This document shows positions 15,765 to 27,077 of a stretch of 42,746 bases of DNA, piece after piece. The stretch is from an uncultured Bacteroidota bacterium. Lineage in GTDB: Bacteria; Bacteroidota; Bacteroidia; Flavobacteriales; Flavobacteriaceae. Positions within the stretch are counted from its first letter, which is position 1; each line of letters starts with the position of its first letter. The position numbers were made by a program, and so were the translations under genes. The notes beneath the pieces were generated by a model, which saw only the letters and a program-made list of their open reading frames with translations, was not told the origin of the DNA and did not search any database. The DNA lies in contig CACCIQ010000007.1 of assembly GCA_902546095.1 (NCBI GenBank), forward strand, positions 1 through 42,746, read 5' to 3'.

Positions 15765-18700
15765 ATGAATACAAAGAATATTTTTAGAAATCTGTTCTTA
15801 TTGTTTGCTTTTTTACTTTCAACTAACCTTATATTTTCTCAAAATTTAATCAGTGGTACTGTCACTGATGAAGGTGGTAATGCACTTCCTGGGGTTAGCA
15901 TAGTTGAAAAAGGAACTAACAATGGAACAGTGTCAGATTTTGATGGTAATTTTCAACTGAATGTTGAAGATGCTGCTACAATTGTTTTCTCATACATAGG
16001 TTATTTAACTCAAGAAGTTGGATCTTCTGCTACAATGAATGTTGTCATGGAAGAGGATGTATCTAAATTAGAGGAAGTAGTAGTCGTTGGTTATGGTACA
16101 CAACAGAAAAAAACATTGACCGGCTCTGTTGCATCAATTTCTGGAGAAGAAATTAACTTAAGACCTACACCTAACACAAGTCAATTATTGATGGGACAAG
16201 CTGCTGGTCTTTCAGTAAGATCTGGTTCAGGACTTCCTGGAGAAGATTTTGCTACTTTGAGAATTAGAAACTTTGAAGCTCCATTAATAATTGTTGATGG
16301 AATTGTTGCAACGTTTGGCCAAGTAGATCCAAATGATATAGAAAATATTTCTATTCTTAAAGATGCTGCAGCTTCGATTTATGGAGCTAGAGCTGGAAAT
16401 GGAGTTATTCTGATAACTACGAAAAGAGGAACTGACAGAGGAGAAGGGGCTAAATTTACATACAATGGAACCGCTTCTTGGTCTGGACTTACTTTTGAAC
16501 CAAGAACACTTAGTGCAAACCAATATGTAGACTTAGCTTTTAATGAACAAGGTCAACCATTGGCTGACTTAATGCCTCCATATCTTGCATGGGACAATGA
16601 GAGAAAGCAGGTTTATGATAGTACTACAGGTGAAGATTTTGCTGGTAATGACTGGAGAGATCTGATTTATAAAGATTGGCAATTACAAACTCAGCACAAC
16701 TTAAGTGCAAGAGGAAGAAGTAAAGATATTGGATATTTTATCTCACTAGGATTTACAGATACAGAGAGTCAACTGGAAGGTGCTGATTATACTCATACCA
16801 GATATAATATTAGATCAAATTTAGATGTTAATTTAACAGAAAATTTGACTGCAAGATTAGATCTTTCTTATTTCCAGACTACTCTTGATAAAGCACATTT
16901 TCAAACACAAACTCTTTACACTAGATTAAATTCTGGTAAACCAACATATTTGTATGAGTATCCAGATCCTTCATATGCATCTCACGCTGGTGCAGCTACG
17001 GTCTATGCCCCAAATTATTTGATCAAAAAGGATTTTGCTGGTACAATAGTTAACCGTGATAATAACTTAAGAGGAGCAATTAGTCTTACATATGATGTTC
17101 CGTTTATAGCTGGAATGTCAATAACAGGTTCTTTAAATATGGAAGCTCAAAATGAGTGGAATAAAAATATTCAAAAAAGATTTGCTGCTTACAACTATGA
17201 CCCATCTACCCCTGAGGTATACACTCTGTTTGGATATGTAAACAGAGACGTTATTAGTGTAAATGCTGACAGGGATATGGAATTGTTACCCAAGCTTACA
17301 GTTACATACGATAAGGAATGGGGAGATAATATATTAAACGCATTGTTTGTTGCCGAGTCAACAACATTTAAAAGAGATTACTTAATGGGTTCTAGAACTG
17401 ACCCGTTGTCTTTTGAGGCTCCCTATTTGAATTATTCATCTAGAGCCGAATTAGATAATGCTGAAATTTTCTCTGAAAGTGCAAGATCTAGTTATGTAGG
17501 TAGGGTAAATTACAGCTACAAGGATAAGTACTTATTTTCTGCAACAATGAGAGCAGATGCGACTGCAAGATATTCAATTGAAGGTCGTTGGGGTTATTTT
17601 CCAAGTTTAAGTTTTGGTTGGAGAATATCTGAGGAAGATTTTATGAAAGATAATTCTTCCTGGAATAATTTAAAATTGCGAGCATCTTATGGAATAATGG
17701 GTAATGATGCAGTATCAAATTTTGACTTTTTAACAGGTTATAATATTGCTAATGGATTTTATTTATTTAATGGAGATCCCTATCCAATTATTTCCTCAGC
17801 TGGTTTAGCCAATGCTCTTGTTACATGGGAAACCATGAAGATTGCAAATGTTGGAATTGAAGGAACATTGTGGGATGGAGGACTTGGTTTTGAATTAGAC
17901 TTCTTCTACAGACTTAGAGAAGATATATTAGCAATACCGACAGAGGGAGTACCATTCAACTTCGGTGCTAGTCTACCTAGAACAAACCTAAATACCAGAG
18001 ATAATAGAGGTTTTGATTTAATGTTGAAGCATCAAGGAAAAATTGGAGCTGTTAGTTATGAAATTAATCCTATGATTTCATGGGCTAGAGGAAAATATGT
18101 TTCATGGGATGAAAATATCCTTCCAACAGATGGTGTTGATGCATCAGTAGCTGCTGCTAATGCTCTTTATAATGCAAGGTATTCTAGGACTGGTCAATGG
18201 GACGATCTTCAGTGGGGCTTCAACACTACTGGATTTTTTACATCTCAAGATCAAATTGATAATCATCCAATTGATGCCGATAATGCTGGTAACCAAACGG
18301 TAATTGTTGGTGACTTAATCTTTGTTGATCAAAATGGAGATGGCTTGATAGATTGGAAAGATCAAGTGATAATAGGTAAGGGTGGCATGCCTAAATGGAA
18401 TTTTAGTAGTTGGACAAATGCGAAATGGGGAAATTGGAGTGTTAGTGCACTATGGCAAGGAGCTGCAGGTTATTCAATCCAATTTGGTGGCCCTCAGAGT
18501 TGGCAAGGACTAAACAGTCATCAATCAATACCTACAAATATTGCATATGAAAATAGGTCAATAAAAGGAGCTAACGGTGATGTCGAGATTTTGGGTAGAT
18601 TCCCGCCGGCAAATAATACTGGTGGTGTACCTGCAATCAGTAGTCGTGCAAATGATTTTACCAGAATAGATGCTATATATTTAAGACTAAAGACTTTAAA

Positions 18701-18902
18701 TATTGGTTACACTATCCCTAAAAATATAACTGATAGTCTTGGTATAGACGCACTTCAGTTATACATAGCAGGTAACAATGTATTTACTTTAGATAATTTG
18801 GATATATGGTCAGGATACTATGACCCAGAAGTTACTGGAGGTCATCAAAACAATTATCCAACAACAAAGTCCTGGACAACTGGTTTAAAAATTAACTTTT
18901 AA
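15765..18902 (+). CDS. SusC/RagA-family TonB-dependent outer membrane transporter
   Basis: SusC proteins form the outer membrane barrel that imports oligosaccharides captured by SusD. The start at 15765 gives MNTKNIFRNLFLLFAF, a proper signal peptide. An in-frame TTG at 15648 is rejected. The mature protein begins with the carboxypeptidase-D-like domain (ISGTVTDEGGNALPGVSI), then the TonB-box region EEVVVVGYGTQQKK. The plug contains APLIIVDG, the hallmark ISILKDAAASIYGARAGNG and ITTKRG, and the 22-strand barrel ends in TGLKINF with a terminal Phe. At about 1045 residues it is full length. SusD follows after 32 bp. The neighbouring enzymes suggest a sulfated galactose-containing oligosaccharide as cargo. 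Confidence 0.95.
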   Translation: MNTKNIFRNLFLLFAFLLSTNLIFSQNLISGTVTDEGGNALPGVSIVEKGTNNGTVSDFDGNFQLNVEDAATIVFSYIGYLTQEVGSSATMNVVMEEDVSKLEEVVVVGYGTQQKKTLTGSVASISGEEINLRPTPNTSQLLMGQAAGLSVRSGSGLPGEDFATLRIRNFEAPLIIVDGIVATFGQVDPNDIENISILKDAAASIYGARAGNGVILITTKRGTDRGEGAKFTYNGTASWSGLTFEPRTLSANQYVDLAFNEQGQPLADLMPPYLAWDNERKQVYDSTTGEDFAGNDWRDLIYKDWQLQTQHNLSARGRSKDIGYFISLGFTDTESQLEGADYTHTRYNIRSNLDVNLTENLTARLDLSYFQTTLDKAHFQTQTLYTRLNSGKPTYLYEYPDPSYASHAGAATVYAPNYLIKKDFAGTIVNRDNNLRGAISLTYDVPFIAGMSITGSLNMEAQNEWNKNIQKRFAAYNYDPSTPEVYTLFGYVNRDVISVNADRDMELLPKLTVTYDKEWGDNILNALFVAESTTFKRDYLMGSRTDPLSFEAPYLNYSSRAELDNAEIFSESARSSYVGRVNYSYKDKYLFSATMRADATARYSIEGRWGYFPSLSFGWRISEEDFMKDNSSWNNLKLRASYGIMGNDAVSNFDFLTGYNIANGFYLFNGDPYPIISSAGLANALVTWETMKIANVGIEGTLWDGGLGFELDFFYRLREDILAIPTEGVPFNFGASLPRTNLNTRDNRGFDLMLKHQGKIGAVSYEINPMISWARGKYVSWDENILPTDGVDASVAAANALYNARYSRTGQWDDLQWGFNTTGFFTSQDQIDNHPIDADNAGNQTVIVGDLIFVDQNGDGLIDWKDQVIIGKGGMPKWNFSSWTNAKWGNWSVSALWQGAAGYSIQFGGPQSWQGLNSHQSIPTNIAYENRSIKGANGDVEILGRFPPANNTGGVPAISSRANDFTRIDAIYLRLKTLNIGYTIPKNITDSLGIDALQLYIAGNNVFTLDNLDIWSGYYDPEVTGGHQNNYPTTKSWTTGLKINF

Positions 18903-18934: not shown

Positions 18935-20701
18935 ATGAATAAATTAATTAAAACACTTTGCTTTGTTCTTCCAATGATGTTATTTGTAGGATGTGCTGAT
19001 CTGGATCTGCTCCCTACGAACATGATTGCAGAAGATGCTGTTAAAAATGATCCAAAATTAGTTGAGGCGTTTTTAACAAAAATTTATCATCAAACCCGCT
19101 GGGAAGTTAATGATCATAGAGGTCAAAGAGATGGTAGTCACACAAATGACAAACATTGGAGATTTCATGATTGGGTTGTTGGTGGTGAAGGTACCTTAAT
19201 GGCTCCATGGCAGCGAGCAGTCGGAGTATCTTATCAAATACCGAATAGTGGTGGAGCTAATGAAGCTTCAAACTACTGGGCTTATGGAAACATTAGATCT
19301 GCTAATGAAATCATTCAAATTCTTAATGAAGCTACTTTCGATCCAACGACAATCAATCAACAAATTGGTGAAGCTAAATTCTTAAGGGCTTTTATGTATC
19401 TTGAAATGGCCAAAAGATATGGTGGAGTACCATTAGAATTAGTTCCGAAACAACTTGATGCTTCATATGACGAGCTTATGACACCAAGATCTACGTTACA
19501 AGCTACGTATGATCAAATTATTGCTGACTGTGATGCTGCTATCGCAGCTCTTCCAGGTCAGGCAATGGTAGGAAAAGCAACAAAATGGGCTGCACATGCT
19601 TTAAAAAGCAGGGCCTCACTCTACGCTGCGAGGATTGCAAAATATCATCCACAATCTGCAGATGGGCTAACATCAATCCCAGCTAGTTTAGCTGATGGAT
19701 ATTACACAATGTCTCATGCATCTGCTAGTGCTATTATTGACAGCGGAAAGCATCCATTGCACACAGGAGGTGGAACTTATCAAAAAACTTTTTCGGAAGT
19801 TTTAACACTGGAGGGTAACAGCGAACAAATATTTGTGACTCAGTACGATGTTGGTTTAGGTAAAACTCATCAACATGGATATTTCTCTATGCCTGATGGA
19901 TTCAAAGCAGGTTGGGGATCTAATATTCACATTTATGAAGCTTCTGCTGAACGATTTGAATATAAAGATGGTTCGCCAGGTAATAAAAATAGAAATCTGT
20001 TTAACAACAGGACCTTCTTTGATATTGAGGATGTCGTATATCAAAAAGATCCAAGATATTTAGCAAAAGCATGGACACCTGAAGAAGTCTTTGCTGGAAG
20101 AAGTGTTTGGTTCCACGATAATACCATTGGACCAAGTAACCCGAATGTTAAAGGAAGAGGAGGTGATGTTGCTCCACGAAGGGCTCCACCTAGAAATAGA
20201 AATAGAGGAGGGAGACTTGCTCAACATAGAGTGCCATTAGATGGAAGTTATGAGTTTATTGCTTATAATAATGATGGTATGGATTATGTGGTTTTTAGAA
20301 CTGGTGAAATGTATCTCAATGCTGCTGAAGCTGCTTTTGAAATTGGAAAGCCAATCAGAGCAAAACAAATGTTGAATGCGGTTAGAAATAGAGTTGGTAT
20401 GCCTCCAAAACAAGTTGCAACATTATCTAACATTAAAAATGAGAGATTTGTTGAGCTGTTTGGAGAAAATCATCATTTGACTGATCTAAAAACATGGAGA
20501 GATGCAGAGGCTGCAATCCATATGAAACCTAAATGGGGAGTAAAATGGTTCAGAAGAGGATCCGATGGAATGTATAAGGCCAGAAGATGGAGATGGAATT
20601 TTTCACAAAATACACCATTCGTTGAAAGAATGTATTGGTTGCCGATCGGTAATGGAAGGATTGCTGATAATCCTAACTTAGTAGAAAATCCTGGCTACTA
20701 A
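18935..20701 (+). CDS. SusD/RagB-family surface glycan-binding lipoprotein
   Basis: This 588-residue lipoprotein (LFVGCADLDLLP, lipidated Cys20) forms the lid of the SusC barrel and binds glycan at the cell surface. The helical TPR-type core is recognisable from ANEIIQILNEA, GEAKFLRAFMYLEMAKRYGG and the C-terminal YLNAAEAAFEIG with RFVELFGENHHLTDLKTW. An unusual feature is a strongly basic segment at residues 405-432, from VKGRGGDVAPRRAPP to AQHR, with eight arginines. Another basic stretch, KWFRRGSDGMYKARRWRW, is near the end. Such charge would suit a sulfated ligand, which is inference. A strong terminator follows. Confidence 0.94.
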   Translation: MNKLIKTLCFVLPMMLFVGCADLDLLPTNMIAEDAVKNDPKLVEAFLTKIYHQTRWEVNDHRGQRDGSHTNDKHWRFHDWVVGGEGTLMAPWQRAVGVSYQIPNSGGANEASNYWAYGNIRSANEIIQILNEATFDPTTINQQIGEAKFLRAFMYLEMAKRYGGVPLELVPKQLDASYDELMTPRSTLQATYDQIIADCDAAIAALPGQAMVGKATKWAAHALKSRASLYAARIAKYHPQSADGLTSIPASLADGYYTMSHASASAIIDSGKHPLHTGGGTYQKTFSEVLTLEGNSEQIFVTQYDVGLGKTHQHGYFSMPDGFKAGWGSNIHIYEASAERFEYKDGSPGNKNRNLFNNRTFFDIEDVVYQKDPRYLAKAWTPEEVFAGRSVWFHDNTIGPSNPNVKGRGGDVAPRRAPPRNRNRGGRLAQHRVPLDGSYEFIAYNNDGMDYVVFRTGEMYLNAAEAAFEIGKPIRAKQMLNAVRNRVGMPPKQVATLSNIKNERFVELFGENHHLTDLKTWRDAEAAIHMKPKWGVKWFRRGSDGMYKARRWRWNFSQNTPFVERMYWLPIGNGRIADNPNLVENPGY

Positions 20702-20725: not shown

Positions 20726-20760
20726 AAAAAAAAGGACTCATTATTTGGGTCCTTTTTTTT
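20726..20760 (+). terminator. Rho-independent terminator after susD
   Basis: AAAGGACTC (20731-20739) pairs with GGGTCCTTT (20747-20755), nine pairs with one G-U, closed by a 7-nt loop and followed by T to 20760. It ends only 7 bp before the plug-lipoprotein start and should lower transcription of the downstream sulfatases relative to susCD. Confidence 0.85.
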
Positions 20761-20767
20761 ATATTTA

Positions 20768-21217
20768 GTGCTTGTGAGATCAATTATTTTAATATATGTT
20801 TTAACTCTTTCTTGTTCTTCAATTAATTTAGGTGGTGATATCAAATCCGATGAAAAATATGATACTGGATATGGTTTAGAATTAAAAAAATCTTCATTAA
20901 GCTCTACTCAAGTTTTGGACGGTGAAAAATTGATAGTTGGTGCAAGTTATGATACGAATGAGACATTGAAAGGTCAAATTTCAGGATTAACTGTAAAAAA
21001 ATCTGATAACAATGCACCAGATGACTTTTCCTCTTTTTTTATTAGAAATTTTTCTCACCCTCCACTAATTATAGTTGATGGGATGGAATCAACAATTGAA
21101 AATCTTGATCCAAATGATATTGAATCAATTTCAATACTTAAAGATGCTGCTGCAGCTATTTATGGCTCAAGGGCTGGAAATGGTGTAATCATTGTAAAAA
21201 CAAAAAGAGGCAAGTAA
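20768..21217 (+). CDS. Free-standing TonB-receptor plug-domain lipoprotein
   Basis: This 149-residue exported protein has a short lipoprotein signal with lipobox LTLSC. The start is GTG at 20768, and a second GTG at 20774 would give an equally good signal. The rest is only a SusC-type plug: LKGQISGLTVKK, PLIIVDGMESTIENLDPNDI, then SISILKDAAAAIYGSRAGNG, ending at KTKRGK where a SusC barrel would begin. Over the last 50 residues about 37 match the plug of the SusC at 15765. There is no barrel, and none follows in any frame, because the next gene starts 2 bp after the stop. The intact frame, own signal and operon position argue for a maintained gene rather than debris. Function is unknown; it may bind SusD, SusC or TonB. 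Confidence 0.8.
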   Translation: MLVRSIILIYVLTLSCSSINLGGDIKSDEKYDTGYGLELKKSSLSSTQVLDGEKLIVGASYDTNETLKGQISGLTVKKSDNNAPDDFSSFFIRNFSHPPLIIVDGMESTIENLDPNDIESISILKDAAAAIYGSRAGNGVIIVKTKRGK

Positions 21218-21218
21218 A

Positions 21219-22643
21219 ATGAAAAAAATTTATCTTTTTATAATTTTATTATTTTTTTCATGTTCAAAACCTATTGATAAGCCAAATCTTCTTTTTATAC
21301 TAGTTGACGATCTTGGATGGACCGATGTTTCATATAATGGCTCAGATTTTTATGAAACATATAATATTGACCGTTTAAGTTTAAGCAGTATGCTGTTTTT
21401 TAATGCATATGCTTCAAGTTCAGTATGCTCTCCCACAAGAGCTTCTATAATGACGGGTAAACATCCTGCTCGTTTGAATATTACAGACTGGATTCCTGGT
21501 CTTGAGGAGCAAAATTACTATGATATTACTAAGAATATTTTAAATGGCCCGAAGGATAGAAATGAACTCCCTTTAAACGAAACGACTATTGCTGAAGTTT
21601 TAAAAATGAATGGTTACAAAACTTTTTACTCTGGAAAATGGCATTTGGGTAGTGAGGGTCATTATCCTGAAGATCAAGGTTTCGATATAAATATTGGAGG
21701 GTTTGAGAAGGGTAGTCCAATGGGAGGATATTACTCCCCTTATAAAAATCCAAAGCTAAGCGATGGACCTGAGGGAGAATATTTAACTGATAGACTTACT
21801 ACTGAAGCAATTGATTTTATTGACTCTAGAGACAAATCAAAACCCTTTGCTGCTTTTCTATCTTTTTATAATGTCCATACTCCAATTCAAGAAAATAAAG
21901 AATTCTATGATTATTACCTTGAAAAATTAAATGGTTATGAGGATAAAGAACCAATAACCAAAAAAGAAGGTGATGCAAAAACAGTCCTTAATCACAGAAA
22001 TCCTAAGTATGCATCAATGGTTCATGCAACGGATTATAATGTTGGTAGAATCATTAATTATTTAAAGAAAAATGAGCTTTTTGATAATACGTTAATTGTA
22101 TTTACATCAGATAATGGTGGATTATCTACCCAAGGAAAAGTAGCACCAACATCAGTATATCCATTAAGAGCTGGAAAAGGATGGTTATATGAGGGGGGGA
22201 TTAAAATACCTCAGCTTATTAAACTTCCAATGCAAGCATATAGAGAAATAATATACGAGCCTGTTGTTTCTTATGATTTATTTCCAACTATTTTGAATGC
22301 ACTTGGTGCAAAATATAATATCAAAAACATTGACGGAAAAGACTTAAATAATTTATTTTTTAAAAAAGAGTTTGATAGAGATTATATTTTTTGGCATTTT
22401 CCTCATTATCACGGTAGTCTTTGGAAACCAGGTTCAGCTATTAGAAATAAAGAGTGGAAACTAGTTCAATTTTATGAGGAAAATACTAAAGAATTATATA
22501 ACTTATATGATGATTTTAGTGAGTCAAACAATTTAGCAGATACTTATCCTGAAATTGTAGATAATTTATCTAAAAAAATGGAGGAGATTAAACTTGATTT
22601 GAATGCAAACAAAACAACAATAAACCAGAATTATAAAAAATGA
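21219..22643 (+). CDS. Lipoprotein type I sulfatase
   Basis: This is a 474-residue S1 sulfatase with lipobox LFFSC (Cys15), LVDDLGWTD metal ligands, the formylglycine motif CSPTR at Cys70 followed by ASIMTGKHP, SGKWHLGSEG, and FTSDNGGLS. The usual ETPNID reads ETYNID here. It is a paralogue of the sulfatase at 9058-10551, sharing GFDINIGG, GGYYSPYK and GEYLTDR. It starts one base after the plug lipoprotein stop codon and overlaps the next sulfatase by 4 bp (ATGA), so it is part of a tight plus-strand operon that continues through the two esterases. Confidence 0.93.
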   Translation: MKKIYLFIILLFFSCSKPIDKPNLLFILVDDLGWTDVSYNGSDFYETYNIDRLSLSSMLFFNAYASSSVCSPTRASIMTGKHPARLNITDWIPGLEEQNYYDITKNILNGPKDRNELPLNETTIAEVLKMNGYKTFYSGKWHLGSEGHYPEDQGFDINIGGFEKGSPMGGYYSPYKNPKLSDGPEGEYLTDRLTTEAIDFIDSRDKSKPFAAFLSFYNVHTPIQENKEFYDYYLEKLNGYEDKEPITKKEGDAKTVLNHRNPKYASMVHATDYNVGRIINYLKKNELFDNTLIVFTSDNGGLSTQGKVAPTSVYPLRAGKGWLYEGGIKIPQLIKLPMQAYREIIYEPVVSYDLFPTILNALGAKYNIKNIDGKDLNNLFFKKEFDRDYIFWHFPHYHGSLWKPGSAIRNKEWKLVQFYEENTKELYNLYDDFSESNNLADTYPEIVDNLSKKMEEIKLDLNANKTTINQNYKK

Positions 22644-24241
22644 GAAATATTTACCTATTAATAATCTTAATGTTCGTCGCCGGATGTGCCGATAAAGATG
22701 AAAGACCTAACATACTATTTATAATGTCAGATGATCATGCTTATCAAGCAATAAGCGCATATAGTGATAAACTCATCCAAACCCCAAATATAGATAGGAT
22801 TGCCGATGAAGGAATTTTATTTACAAATGCTTGTGTAACTAATTCAATTTGTGCTCCATCCAGAGCTGTTATCCTCACTGGAAAGCACAGCCATTTAAAT
22901 GGAAAAATAGATAACCATGCTAAATTTGATACCACGCAGGTTACATTTCCTCAACTGTTTCAAAAAGCTGGTTATCAAACTGCCATGTATGGAAAATTAC
23001 ATTTTGGAAATAATCCAAAAGGGGTAGATGATTTTTGGATTCTTCCTGGACAAGGAGATTACATTAATCCCAAGTTTTTAGGTCAAAAGAAAGATACTAC
23101 TATCACTGGTTATGTCACAGATGTTATAACGGATCTAACGCTCAACTGGTTTAAAACCAAAAGAGATAAAAACAAGCCTTTTATGATGATGTACCTACAC
23201 AAAGCACCTCACCGAGCGTGGTGGCCAAGTCCTGAGAAGTTTGCTGAGTTTTATGAAAAGAAATTCCCTGAACCAGAAACGCTTTTTGATGACTACTCTA
23301 ACAGAGGAACTGCTGCAAAAACTGCAGAAATGAACCTACTTACTCATATGCAATACATGCATGATAGTAAGGTGAGACCCTCGGTTATGAAAGAAATGGG
23401 TAAAGTTGAGCCAGAAATTGTTTATGTGAGAGGAGATGGTACTTTAATGCGTCCTGATGCCTCAGGATTTAATAGACCATTTGGTAGAGCTAATGAAGAA
23501 CAAAAAAAGAAATATGACGTCACCTTAGACAAAATTAGTGCTGATTTTAAAGAAAATTGGCCGAAAATGAATGATGAACAGAAGATGAAATGGAAGTTTC
23601 AAAGGTATATGCAAGATTATCTTGCTACTATCTCCTCCGTAGATGATAACGTAGGGAGAGTTCTTGATTATCTGGAAGAAACAGGACTTGATGAAAATAC
23701 TATTGTTATATACACTTCAGACCAAGGTTTTTATTTAGGAGAGCATGGTTGGTTTGATAAAAGATTTATTTATGATGAGTCCTTCAAAACTCCTTTAATG
23801 ATAAAATGGCCAAATAAAATAAAACCTGGAATAACAAATGATGAAATGGTTCAAAACCTAGATTTTGCACAAACATTTTTAGAGGCTGCGATGATTGATG
23901 TTCCTGATGATATGCAAGGAGAGAGCTTGATACCTTTACTTTTAGGTGAAAATGATAAGTGGACAAGAGAGGAAGTTTATTATCATTATTATGAGTATCC
24001 ATCAGTTCACATGGCTAAAAGACATTATGGAATTGTTACTAAAGAATTTAAGCTTGCAAGATTCTATTATGATGTTGATGAATGGGAGTTATATGATAGA
24101 TATAAAGATCCCAATGAAATGAATAATGTATACAATGATCCAGAATATGCTGATGTAGTAGAAGAACTCAAAGTAAAATTAGCTAATCTAAGAGTGAAGT
24201 ATAAGGACTCTGAGGAATTAGATAAGAAGTTTTTATACTAA
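22640..24241 (+). CDS. Lipoprotein type I sulfatase
   Basis: This is a 533-residue S1 sulfatase with lipobox FVAGC (Cys16), MSDDHAYQA metal ligands and the formylglycine motif CAPSR at Cys71, followed by AVILTGKHSHLNG. It then has MYGKLHFGN, where most relatives have GKWHLG, and YTSDQGFYLGEHGWFDKR. The last block and the SHLNG segment are typical of the group that includes N-acetylglucosamine-6-sulfatases and related marine enzymes, but specificity is not settled by this. An insert at about residues 225-300 is richer in Lys and Glu than the rest. It is translationally coupled to the preceding sulfatase, and the first esterase begins directly after its stop. Confidence 0.92.
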   Translation: MRNIYLLIILMFVAGCADKDERPNILFIMSDDHAYQAISAYSDKLIQTPNIDRIADEGILFTNACVTNSICAPSRAVILTGKHSHLNGKIDNHAKFDTTQVTFPQLFQKAGYQTAMYGKLHFGNNPKGVDDFWILPGQGDYINPKFLGQKKDTTITGYVTDVITDLTLNWFKTKRDKNKPFMMMYLHKAPHRAWWPSPEKFAEFYEKKFPEPETLFDDYSNRGTAAKTAEMNLLTHMQYMHDSKVRPSVMKEMGKVEPEIVYVRGDGTLMRPDASGFNRPFGRANEEQKKKYDVTLDKISADFKENWPKMNDEQKMKWKFQRYMQDYLATISSVDDNVGRVLDYLEETGLDENTIVIYTSDQGFYLGEHGWFDKRFIYDESFKTPLMIKWPNKIKPGITNDEMVQNLDFAQTFLEAAMIDVPDDMQGESLIPLLLGENDKWTREEVYYHYYEYPSVHMAKRHYGIVTKEFKLARFYYDVDEWELYDRYKDPNEMNNVYNDPEYADVVEELKVKLANLRVKYKDSEELDKKFLY

Positions 24242-25669
24242 ATGAGGTTTATAATACTATTTATTTTTTTTTCTTCTTCAATTAATTTAAATAGTCAGAT
24301 TGAATTAAGTAATTTATTCTCAGATAACATGGTTCTCCAACAAGAATCTAATGTTAATTTCTGGGGTAAAGCTCAAAAAAATCAAGAACTGCTAATTTAT
24401 ACTTCTTGGTCTGGAAAGATTCATAAAACCACTGTCAATAATGATGGTAATTGGAAAATAAAAATAAAAACTCCATCTGCTGGAGGTCCTTTTAATATTC
24501 AAATTACATGTAATAGTGAAACTAAAACAATTAATAATGTTTTAATTGGTGAGGTTTGGCTTTCAAGCGGTCAATCTAATATGGAAATGACTTTATCAGG
24601 AAATAATCGTGAACCAGTAATTGGTTCATTAGATGCTATTGCTAATTCTAATAACTCAAAAATCAGATTTTTTAATGTAAAGGAAAAAGTTAGTAGGGAG
24701 CGAATTAGTAATGTTGAAGGAGAATGGTTACAGGCTAATTTTAAAAATACTCCAAATTTTAGTGCTGTTGCATATTCTTTCGCAAAATATCTAAATCAAG
24801 TTTTAGATGTTCCCTTTGGGATAATTAATTCCCCAAAAGATGGTTCTGTTGCTGAGGCATGGATAAGTCCTGAGGTTTTAAAAAAAATTACTACTGAAAA
24901 GGAGCTAAGTTACTATGTGATACAGCCTCATAATAGTCCATCTGTTCTGTTCAATGGCATGATAAACGCAATAATTCCTTTTACAATCAAAGGTGTTATT
25001 TGGTATCAAGGCGAGGGAAACGTAGGGCGTTATCAAAACTATATGAAATTAATGAATGGATTAATAAAAAATTGGAGAGATGAATGGGGATTAGGTGATT
25101 TTCCTTTCTATTTTGTTCAGCTTGCTCCAAATGGATCGCTGGGAAAAGGTAATGGAACATCCCAAGCATTTTTGAGAGAGGCCCAGTTAAAAACAATGCT
25201 TTCAGTAAAAAATACAGGAATGGCAGTAACATTAGATATTGGAAGTACCATAACTAATCACCCACCTGAAAAACTTTTGATTGGAAAAAGACTTGCATAT
25301 TGGGCATTAGCCAAAAATTATGGTTTTGATAGTTTACCTTACTCTGGACCGGTTTATGATTCATTCGATATCAAAAATAATAAGGTTTATGTTAATTTTA
25401 AATTTGCCTTAAATGGAGTAACAAGTTACGGAAAGCCATTAAGTGGTTTTGAGATTGCTGGTAAGGATAAAATCTTTTATTCTGCAGATGCATCAATAGA
25501 CCCACATTATTCTGCAGGGTGGGAAAATAGAAGTATTCTGATTCTGAGCAGTAAACATGTTCCAAATCCACTATATATTAGATATGGGTGGAAAAATTAT
25601 ATTGAAGGTACACTTTACAATGTTGAGGGACTGCCTGCATCATCATTTAGATCTTATAATTTTGATTAA
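24242..25669 (+). CDS. SASA-family carbohydrate acetylesterase (first of a tandem pair)
   Basis: This 475-residue exported protein of the sialate O-acetylesterase/SASA type has a signal peptide ending near LNSQIE. LFSDNMVLQQ and WGKA open the N-terminal beta domain. The SGNH-like catalytic domain has SSGQSNMEM with the nucleophile Ser, VIWYQGEGN, and the catalytic His in TNHPPEK. Such enzymes remove O-acetyl groups from sugars, often xylan or algal glycans rather than sialic acid. One block that normally reads like SAWGGTPAEAW, as in its neighbour, is SPKDGSVAEAW here. This may alter the oxyanion or substrate loop. It begins at the base after the sulfatase stop and lies 4 bp before its paralogue. 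Confidence 0.9.
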   Translation: MRFIILFIFFSSSINLNSQIELSNLFSDNMVLQQESNVNFWGKAQKNQELLIYTSWSGKIHKTTVNNDGNWKIKIKTPSAGGPFNIQITCNSETKTINNVLIGEVWLSSGQSNMEMTLSGNNREPVIGSLDAIANSNNSKIRFFNVKEKVSRERISNVEGEWLQANFKNTPNFSAVAYSFAKYLNQVLDVPFGIINSPKDGSVAEAWISPEVLKKITTEKELSYYVIQPHNSPSVLFNGMINAIIPFTIKGVIWYQGEGNVGRYQNYMKLMNGLIKNWRDEWGLGDFPFYFVQLAPNGSLGKGNGTSQAFLREAQLKTMLSVKNTGMAVTLDIGSTITNHPPEKLLIGKRLAYWALAKNYGFDSLPYSGPVYDSFDIKNNKVYVNFKFALNGVTSYGKPLSGFEIAGKDKIFYSADASIDPHYSAGWENRSILILSSKHVPNPLYIRYGWKNYIEGTLYNVEGLPASSFRSYNFD

Positions 25670-25673
25670 TTAA

Positions 25674-27077
25674 ATGAGATTTCATTACATACTATTATTA
25701 CTTTTTTCAATTTCTATATTCTCTCAAATAAAAATGAATAATTTATTTTCCGATAATATGATATTGCAGAGAAATTCAAAAGTTAACATTTGGGGAAAAT
25801 CAAATCCAAATCAAATCGTGACTGTATATGCAAGTTGGAATAATAAATTTGAAAAGACTAAATCAAATAGTGAAGGTGATTGGATATTAAAAATACAAAC
25901 AGACAGCAGTATTGGTCCTTATGAAATGTCTATATCAACAAGTGATGATACTAAAATCATAAAAAATATTTTATTTGGTGAAGTTTGGTTTGCATCTGGG
26001 CAATCAAATATGGAAATGCCTTTAGATGGCTTTTTTGGTGAGCCTGTTTTCGGATCACAAGATATCATTGGAAAATCAATTAATCCTAATATTAGACTTT
26101 TAACTGTTGAAAGAAATTACAGTTCAACTCCTTTAGTTGACTTTAGCGGTAAATGGGAAGAGTCTAATCCTGAAAGCTCAAGATATTTTAGTGCTGTTGC
26201 ATATTCATTTGCAAAATACATTCATGAGTCTTTGGAAGTTCCTGTTGGTATAATATCTAGTGCTTGGGGAGGAACACCAGCTGAAGCTTGGGCTGAAAAA
26301 AGTTTTTTAGATAATGAATTTGAGCCCGGAATAATTATTAATAATTCTAAAGAAAAATTTCAAGAATATAATCCTGGTTATTTATTCAATGCTATGCTTA
26401 ATCCTTTAATTCCTTTTACTGTTAGAGGAGGGATTTGGTATCAGGGCGAAAATAACAGAGAAAGAGCAAAACATTACTCAAAACTAATGCAGGTCATGGT
26501 TTCTAGTTGGAGAGAAAACTGGGGGTTAGGTGATTTTCCATTCTATTTTGTTCAAATTGCTCCATTTAGCTACAGTAACCCAAACGAAAGTAGTTCAGCA
26601 GAGCTTAGAGATGCGCAGCTTGATGCAATGAGAAATATAAATAATTCTGGTATGGTATCAACTGTCGATATTGGAGATTTAAATTCAATACATCCTCCAG
26701 AAAAGATTAAAGTTGGTAATAGACTTGCGTATTGGGCACTTAATCAAACTTATGGGTATAAATCAGTAACACCCTCAGGACCACTTCCTATATCAGCAAA
26801 AGTGGAAGAATCTAAGGTAATTATTAGCTTTGATTATGCTGAAAATGGTTTTTATAACTTTAATGGGCCGTTAAAAGATTTTGAAATTGCTGGAGAGGAC
26901 GAAATATTTTATGAAGCTCAGGCAAAAATTTATGGGGAGTCAATTATTGTAGAATCTGATAATGTTTTTGATCCTGTAAAAGTAAGATATGGATGGAAGA
27001 ATTATTTTGAGGCCAGTCTCTTTAACATTGAGGGTTTACCAGCCACATCCTTTTATATTGAAGAATTATCAAAATAA
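25674..27077 (+). CDS. SASA-family carbohydrate acetylesterase (second of a tandem pair)
   Basis: This is a 467-residue exported paralogue of the preceding gene, with signal peptide ending ISIFSQ and LFSDNMILQRNSKV. The catalytic blocks are SGQSNMEMPLDG (nucleophile Ser), SAWGGTPAEAW, GIWYQGENN and SIHPPEK (catalytic His). All expected residues of the family are present, so it is likely an active deacetylase in the periplasm. Both copies end with a VRYGWKNYFEASLFNIEGLPA-like beta segment. The pair probably arose by tandem duplication and may cover two acetyl positions. It is the last tightly spaced gene of the operon; the next gene follows after 94 bp. Confidence 0.92.
   Translation: MRFHYILLLLFSISIFSQIKMNNLFSDNMILQRNSKVNIWGKSNPNQIVTVYASWNNKFEKTKSNSEGDWILKIQTDSSIGPYEMSISTSDDTKIIKNILFGEVWFASGQSNMEMPLDGFFGEPVFGSQDIIGKSINPNIRLLTVERNYSSTPLVDFSGKWEESNPESSRYFSAVAYSFAKYIHESLEVPVGIISSAWGGTPAEAWAEKSFLDNEFEPGIIINNSKEKFQEYNPGYLFNAMLNPLIPFTVRGGIWYQGENNRERAKHYSKLMQVMVSSWRENWGLGDFPFYFVQIAPFSYSNPNESSSAELRDAQLDAMRNINNSGMVSTVDIGDLNSIHPPEKIKVGNRLAYWALNQTYGYKSVTPSGPLPISAKVEESKVIISFDYAENGFYNFNGPLKDFEIAGEDEIFYEAQAKIYGESIIVESDNVFDPVKVRYGWKNYFEASLFNIEGLPATSFYIEELSK

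Follow-up and report, generated by a model that had tools for sequence, protein, structure and literature searches.

A predicted barrel-less SusC plug lipoprotein in a SusCD/sulfatase locus of Flavobacteriaceae

The window (the whole stretch of DNA analysed here, 42,746 nucleotides of contig CACCIQ010000007.1, assembly GCA_902546095.1) stems from an uncultured member of the Flavobacteriaceae. On its forward strand lies a row of genes for a LacZ-type beta-galactosidase, SusC, SusD, a short TonB-dependent receptor plug, two sulfatases and two SASA esterases. The SusC gene (15765-18902) encodes a complete plug of its own with the Ton box EEVVVVGYG, and its product is the best full-length relative of the short plug protein in the window's genome. 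It is followed by SusD (18935-20701, identified with Pfam), after which comes the plug gene that is the subject of this report. As noted in a preliminary description of the window, only 1 bp separates the plug gene from the sulfatase genes: sulfatase 1 occupies 21219-22643 and sulfatase 2, which has an export-signal-like mature start (CADKDERPN), occupies 22640-24241. The row ends with two carbohydrate esterases of the SASA type (24242-25669 and 25674-27077, together spanning 24242-27077), assigned like the sulfatases with Pfam.

The frame at 20768-21217 is open over 149 codons plus a stop, as described before, but its start has to be corrected. Since homologues align from the second in-frame GTG, two codons downstream of 20768, the true start is likely at 20774, which yields a protein of 147 residues. 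Based on domain profiles and the alignment of homologues, we therefore annotate a plug-only lipoprotein gene with a GTG start at 20774-21217 (forward strand). The layout of its product is simple: a short signal peptide (residues 1-13) with the presumed lipid-attachment residue Cys14 (20774-20815; Ser-Cys in all 12 genes discussed below), a 17-residue linker and a SusC plug terminating at KTKRGK. In the alignment a degraded Ton box is found at residues 26-32 (20849-20869), and the plug domain covers residues 32-147 (20867-21214), the C-terminal half showing most constraint (based on Pfam, substitution rates and a structure model).

Profile scans show that the protein is a plug without a barrel. 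It matches the Pfam Plug domain (PF07715) with 60.2 bits and the SusC/RagA signature TIGR04057 with 60.7 bits (the local SusC scores 56.9), while TIGR04056 is matched at positions 84-207 of 981 only, which leaves no barrel. In the Pfam and TIGR profile scans the barrel and the CarbopepD_reg_2 extension went unmatched. The final KTKRGK is the point where the SusC barrel starts and all 12 genes stop there, in agreement with the earlier view of a plug-only frame that ends where the barrel would begin and leaves no barrel remnant. Databases name such short proteins 'TonB-dependent receptor plug domain-containing protein'.

The closest relative in the window's genome is the plug of the local SusC (49% identity over residues 26-148, E 7.8e-32), followed at a distance by the next-best match (E 6.7e-10). 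Four other SusC proteins of the same genome share 30-33% in long alignments or 60-62% in alignments of about 40 residues. The similarity to the local plug had been put at 37 of 50 residues in the last part; counting the last 50 residues by hand we obtain 36. Profile comparison connects the protein to RagA (E 1.1e-26) and BT1763 (E 5.1e-25), so that it shares the plug domain of the SusC/RagA transporters, and its predicted fold matches the RagA and SusC plugs. It differs from these transporters in having neither the barrel nor the CarbopepD_reg_2 extension, in carrying its own lipoprotein signal and in the loss of the Ton box. AlphaFold reached a mean confidence (predicted local distance difference test, pLDDT) of 52 with 8 alignment rows and 74.5 with 60 rows, and Foldseek of the latter model returned RagA (E 6.4e-9) and SusC-type plugs as best matches. 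Given that 49 of the 60 rows (49 of the 78 at hand) are SusC plug pieces, this match is expected and hardly independent; it indicates compatibility with the fold only.

Relatives were found in the window's genus (g1) and in a second genus of the same family (g5). Barrel-less copies are present in 6 of 23 g1 genomes and 5 of 22 g5 genomes, amounting to 12 genes in 11 genomes including the window's own, and orthologues thus exist elsewhere in two genera. In the protein search of a sample of 397 genomes of the family, at most the nine best candidates per genome were scored, among the matches listed. Named records carrying the gene are AG-461-P01 (87%), AH-287-A05 (71%) and the Flavobacteriaceae record UWMA-0351 (54%), and these add no copies beyond the 12. 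A DNA pattern for PPLIIVDG[IM] plus D or E was met in 3 of the 397 family genomes, all belonging to g1 or g5, though this pattern is blind to variants such as those in G791 (PPLIIIDG) and G775 (PPLVIVDG). Outside the window's genome, no further barrel-less plugs were detected at E <= 1e-28 among 395 genomes of the order (with at most ten candidates scored per genome, so that copies may have escaped). Two SusC frames that are cut by a contig end (G782:C3, 214 codons; G414:C33, 274 codons, judged from its position at the contig's first bases) are not free plugs. Because barrel-less copies occur in ten further genomes, the window frame is no read error; a frameshifted SusC is ruled out by the 12 intact barrel-less genes, none of which runs into a barrel.

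Two side observations were made in G787. Its two plug genes are tandem copies (L192:7800-8767) that are nearly identical (dN 0.003, dS 0.010), and at G787:C4:98105-98422 a match to the plug is interrupted by six stop codons, probably a decayed receptor.

The gene order SusC-SusD-plug-sulfatase 1-sulfatase 2 is conserved for 7 of the 12 genes (the window, G414, G416, G412, G332, G403 and G004; in G414 the SusC is cut by the contig end), and in all seven SusCD-linked loci the plug gene directly precedes sulfatase 1. Other g1 genomes (G408, G405, G149 and G407) have SusD directly followed by sulfatase 1 without a plug gene, and in G404 and G411 other genes follow SusCD. The remaining five plug genes, from four of the 11 genomes, are unlinked (G777, G787 with two copies, G775 and G791): no SusCD was recognised in the 10-18 kb read around each of them. 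In G775 and G791 a DoxX gene (assigned with Pfam in G791) and a MORN/aspartyl-protease gene come after the plug gene; in G787 it is a MORN/aspartyl-protease gene. The SusCD loci that these four genomes do possess hold another gene after susD. The suggested recurrence downstream of SusCD with sulfatases consequently applies to seven of the genes and fails for five. The five unlinked genes indicate that the plug gene does not depend on SusCD, even if SusCD loci are its usual place in g1, and led us to reject a strict accessory of SusCD.

In a first tree of 90 plug domains (78 of 122 SusC pieces were retained after removal of near-copies and thinning), the 12 genes form one clade (support 100/95), and the SusC of this locus type from both genera is its sister (94/80), though with few columns and a bootstrap that had yet to settle fully. 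The same outcome is obtained from a second tree, with 92 rows (100/99 for the plug clade, 99/92 for the sister fork), albeit with a program warning on few columns and long branches. According to these trees the 12 genes, hereafter family A, are of single origin and descend from the SusC of this locus type. The SusC of G004 (L187) nests among those of g1 (100/97) and its plug groups with the g5 plugs (95/80); a locus transfer between the genera involving G004 is possible.

Ratios of nonsynonymous to synonymous substitution rates (dN/dS), estimated with the Nei-Gojobori method, amount to 0.12-0.31 for the core of the free plug (median 0.175, 15 g1 pairs), far from the value near 1 that would be expected of a gene without function. 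For the SusC plug they are 0.005-0.077 (median 0.026, 10 g1 pairs, leaving out G414 with its cut SusC); pair by pair the free plug exceeds the neighbouring SusC plug 3.5- to 39-fold (10 pairs). SusD (0.036-0.158) and sulfatase 1 (0.051-0.122) were compared for six chosen pairs each. All these ratios are rough, as many dS values exceed 1. By region (ratio of sums), the signal and linker reach 0.58 (14 pairs), the N-terminal half 0.28 (14 pairs) and the C-terminal half 0.09 (15 pairs). Judged by these ratios, the plug gene is under purifying selection, mainly on its C-terminal half. Taken together, the sequence comparisons indicate that the gene is a real, selected one, derived from SusC, and that it encodes a barrel-less SusC plug with a lipoprotein signal of its own. 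The earlier suspicion of a function is thereby supported.

The Ton box is where the free plugs deviate most uniformly. At residues 26-32 the window protein reads DEKYDTG against DEVVVTG in the aligned BT1763, where it is the Ton box (PMC7782687). Two positions ahead of GYG, all 12 plug genes encode D, N, Q or E, whereas SusC frames of at least 600 residues have V there in 138 cases, A in 5, I in 4 and T in 1 (148 scored out of 175; the other 27 were missed by the search pattern, and overlapping loci may double-count a few genes). The free plugs thus appear to be without a working Ton box. With a Ton box degraded in 12 of 12, the competition for TonB that had been suggested for this protein is unlikely. 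Two residues of the aromatic lock are retained: Y89 and Y191 of BT1763, both part of this lock (PMC7618045), align with Y33 and Y130 of the plug protein, which are invariant in the 12 genes. As an aside, PMC7618045 gives the barrel-side lock residue as F558 in its text and F588 in a legend; by our indexing, the chain has a phenylalanine at 558 and not at 588.

In all 12 genes a hydrophobic signal that ends in Ser-Cys is seen by eye, which bears out the lipoprotein signal reported earlier and suggests that the protein is lipidated. Surface lipoproteins of Bacteroidota have acidic residues right after the lipid cysteine (PMC5080379). At positions +2 to +6 the 12 plugs have a single acidic residue in 60 positions, against means per protein of 2.0 for SusD (24 rows), 2.2 for sulfatase 2 (17 rows) and 2.0 for w8 (11 of 13 rows scored); two loci are counted twice in these sets (L036/L132 and L037/L133). 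Low acidity is not unique to the plugs, as sulfatase 1 has 0.8 (18 rows) and w7 has 0.3 (6 of 7 rows scored). Since the acidic export signal is absent, we predict that the plug faces the periplasm, probably from the inner leaflet of the outer membrane. SusD, with its mature start C-A-D-L-D, does have the acidic export-signal residues. SusD being expected outside and the plug in the periplasm, the binding to SusD that was considered previously is unlikely, and a surface partner of SusD is rejected.

Family A is not the only group of free plugs. A Pfam scan of ten genomes yielded further short plug frames among the matches listed, six of which were fetched: four are barrel-less plugs (three of a family B, one of a family C), while G004:C13 (260 codons) and G004:C2 (312 codons) are not counted as they look like broken or mis-assembled receptors. 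Family B (137-171 residues by first start codon) begins after the Ton-box region, and its signal peptide shows no lipid cysteine (by eye). It is present in 11 of 23 g1 genomes, among them the window's own (where a Pfam scan of that genome missed it and a protein search found it), and in all 11 it directly precedes an M1-type peptidase gene (Pfam on one gene, the others recognised by their shared start). Its loci are G000:C2:11023-11454 (L214), L238-L246 and L250, and its median dN/dS is 0.22 (range 0.065-0.416; 38 pairs with dS < 2, 10 of the 11 genes). Family C has 139 residues, is lipoprotein-like with a replaced Ton box (by eye) and occurs in 2 of 23 g1 genomes (G412 and G410, L208:7804-8223 and L258, 96% identical). 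Additional short plugs may exist.

The three families differ in origin. Family B (95/71) stands beside the SusC type of G000:C4 (fork 100/97), and family C falls close to the SusC type of G000:C6 (fork 91/83) on a very long branch of 1.7, across a 100/99 split from A and B. A single clade of A and B is rejected by the approximately unbiased test (p-AU 0.002, two trees compared; the groups were named before that tree but after the search hits had been seen). Based on these trees, families B and C, barrel-less and Ton-box-less SusC plugs of g1 like family A, arose independently of it, out of other SusC paralogues.

We tentatively propose that the free plug acts in trans as a cork or inhibitor of SusC-type barrels that cannot be removed by TonB; we assign this reading a probability of roughly 40%. 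The plug would dock into or under such barrels from the periplasmic side and, having no working Ton box, would resist being pulled out by TonB. It could then seal barrels whose own plug was pulled out or cut off, or alternatively hold surplus transporters shut. Both the docking and its physiological effect are what we infer from the pattern of conservation: the C-terminal part is kept, the N-terminal part is relaxed (family A) or dropped (family B) and the Ton box is lost, which favours a cork or inhibitor. The invariant tyrosines of the aromatic lock and the separate rise of two more Ton-box-less families point the same way. Several published observations fit in. In vitro, SusC plugs can come out of the barrel, and they have also been found removed by proteolysis (PMC7782687). 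In BtuB, unfolding starts with the stretch that follows the Ton box, and the remainder resists force (PMC11658791). When the plug of FpvAI is produced on its own, it complements in trans a barrel that lacks one (PMC10994204); common to both would be the delivery of a plug in trans via the periplasm, but that pair is engineered with a plugless partner, whereas the present plug is natural and Ton-box-less and its likely partner has its own plug. The periplasmic lipoprotein Llp of phage T5 jams FhuA (PMC9586334). Llp/Cor proteins resemble the free plug in being small lipoproteins, predicted in our case to face the periplasm, with a proposed action on a TonB-dependent transporter; they are however phage-encoded, while the window gene is chromosomal and itself a plug.

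A number of points weigh against a cork. No copy was detected in 17 of 23 g1 and 17 of 22 g5 genomes (though most assemblies are incomplete, which makes these absences weak), and five of the genes lie away from SusCD. The local SusC possesses its own plug, and in substrate-free intact levan utilisomes every barrel is plugged (PMC7618045). The authors of PMC7782687 regard plug expulsion as probably non-physiological, yet suggestive for removal by TonB. The weaker constraint on the free plug compared to the SusC plug speaks against an exact fit into the same barrel, and by our own indexing the lock residue F558 of BT1763 aligns with V578 of the local SusC. Finally, GYG and IYG are general plug residues, so that their retention may reflect retention of the fold only.

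The free plug could also be a decaying susC duplicate of which the plug part persists with little or no function, an option raised before. Descent from SusC is borne out, and decay would agree with the relaxed constraint, with the occurrence in 6 of 23 and 5 of 22 mostly incomplete genomes and with the long stem branch (0.42-0.48). We nonetheless consider a functionless copy rather unlikely, given frames that are intact in all 12 genes across two genera, a dN/dS of 0.09 in the C-terminal half, a signal peptide that is kept, a uniform change of the Ton box and a second family (B) retained in 11 of 23 genomes. It is likewise rather improbable that the protein is a periplasmic ligand-binding protein or chaperone that holds sulfated oligosaccharide: the unlinked copies neighbour genes for DoxX, a MORN/aspartyl-protease and others, no SusCD being recognised in the sequence read around them, and the N-terminal half is more variable than the C-terminal half, even though plug residues contact a glycan (FOS2) in BT1763 (PMC7782687) and the gene directly precedes sulfatase 1 wherever it is linked to SusCD.

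More remote is a defence that blocks receptors against phages or bacteriocins entering through SusC-type receptors, in the manner of Llp and FhuA. The small size, lipoprotein nature and predicted periplasmic location shared with Llp (PMC9586334) would suit this role, as would a patchy, fast-evolving gene that was once tandemly duplicated. Yet Llp is not a plug, PADLOC matched none of the five proteins tested, no relative was found in viral contigs and no named defence gene was recognised among the scanned neighbours in the window (neighbours elsewhere being mostly unannotated). Least probable by far is a decoy that binds TonB and so damps all TonB-dependent import: the plug does derive from a domain that normally presents the Ton box to TonB, but none of the 12 genes has kept this box unaltered, family B lacks it and family C has another sequence in its place (both by eye); with the Ton box lost we reject the decoy.

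A phage gene was rejected as well, since no relatives were found in viral contigs and the neighbours are metabolic and of housekeeping type. In PHROGs the window protein matched no named family of the Llp/Cor type, and its only match at E <= 0.1 is phrog_5687 (760 positions, no assigned function). Each of the five plug proteins examined matches this phage family, family C with the best E value (1.4e-9), and it is perhaps a virus-borne receptor-like protein.

Extending the proposed cork beyond family A, it is conceivable but doubtful that Ton-box-less SusC plugs split off as periplasmic proteins at least three times in small-genome Flavobacteriaceae and serve as general trans-acting corks, a TonB-independent gating by split plugs. 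That free plugs arose three separate times in one genus suggests a use rather than an accident; as an architecture they are a variation on a known domain, and its repeated birth with the same loss in one genus was unexpected. No natural free-standing plug was met in the titles and abstract openings of the open-access literature searched. Whether the whole plug exits the SusC barrel, and how it is replaced, is called unclear in PMC7782687, and a lipid-anchored natural plug without a Ton box would offer a direct probe of plug exit from SusC. If it enters SusC barrels, plug exchange occurs in cells and outer-membrane leakage or import can be controlled in trans.

Some further features of the locus were observed. 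Between susD and the plug gene lies a terminator-like hairpin with a T run (about 20726-20760, forward strand; seen by eye and not listed by a hairpin scan), which corrects the preliminary description. Its stem varies on both sides between species (GGAC/GTCC, GGAT/ATCC; by eye). A plug-specific element was rejected, as hairpins follow susD in plug-less loci too (by eye). In five g5 genomes (L196-L200) a frame of 1356-1388 residues, perhaps a hybrid two-component regulator by our guess, lies between lacZ and susC and is absent from the window's locus.

Just upstream of the start codon stands TATATTTA (20760-20767, forward strand), which by eye precedes 10 of the 12 plug genes, including 4 of the 5 unlinked ones, and which we take to resemble the -7 promoter element of Bacteroidota. 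The plug-gene transcript may have almost no leader. Counted over 278 upstream stretches (G777 entered twice, the window left out), TATATTTA occurs in 16, ten of them labelled PLUG, against 4.8 +/- 2.2 in letter shuffles.
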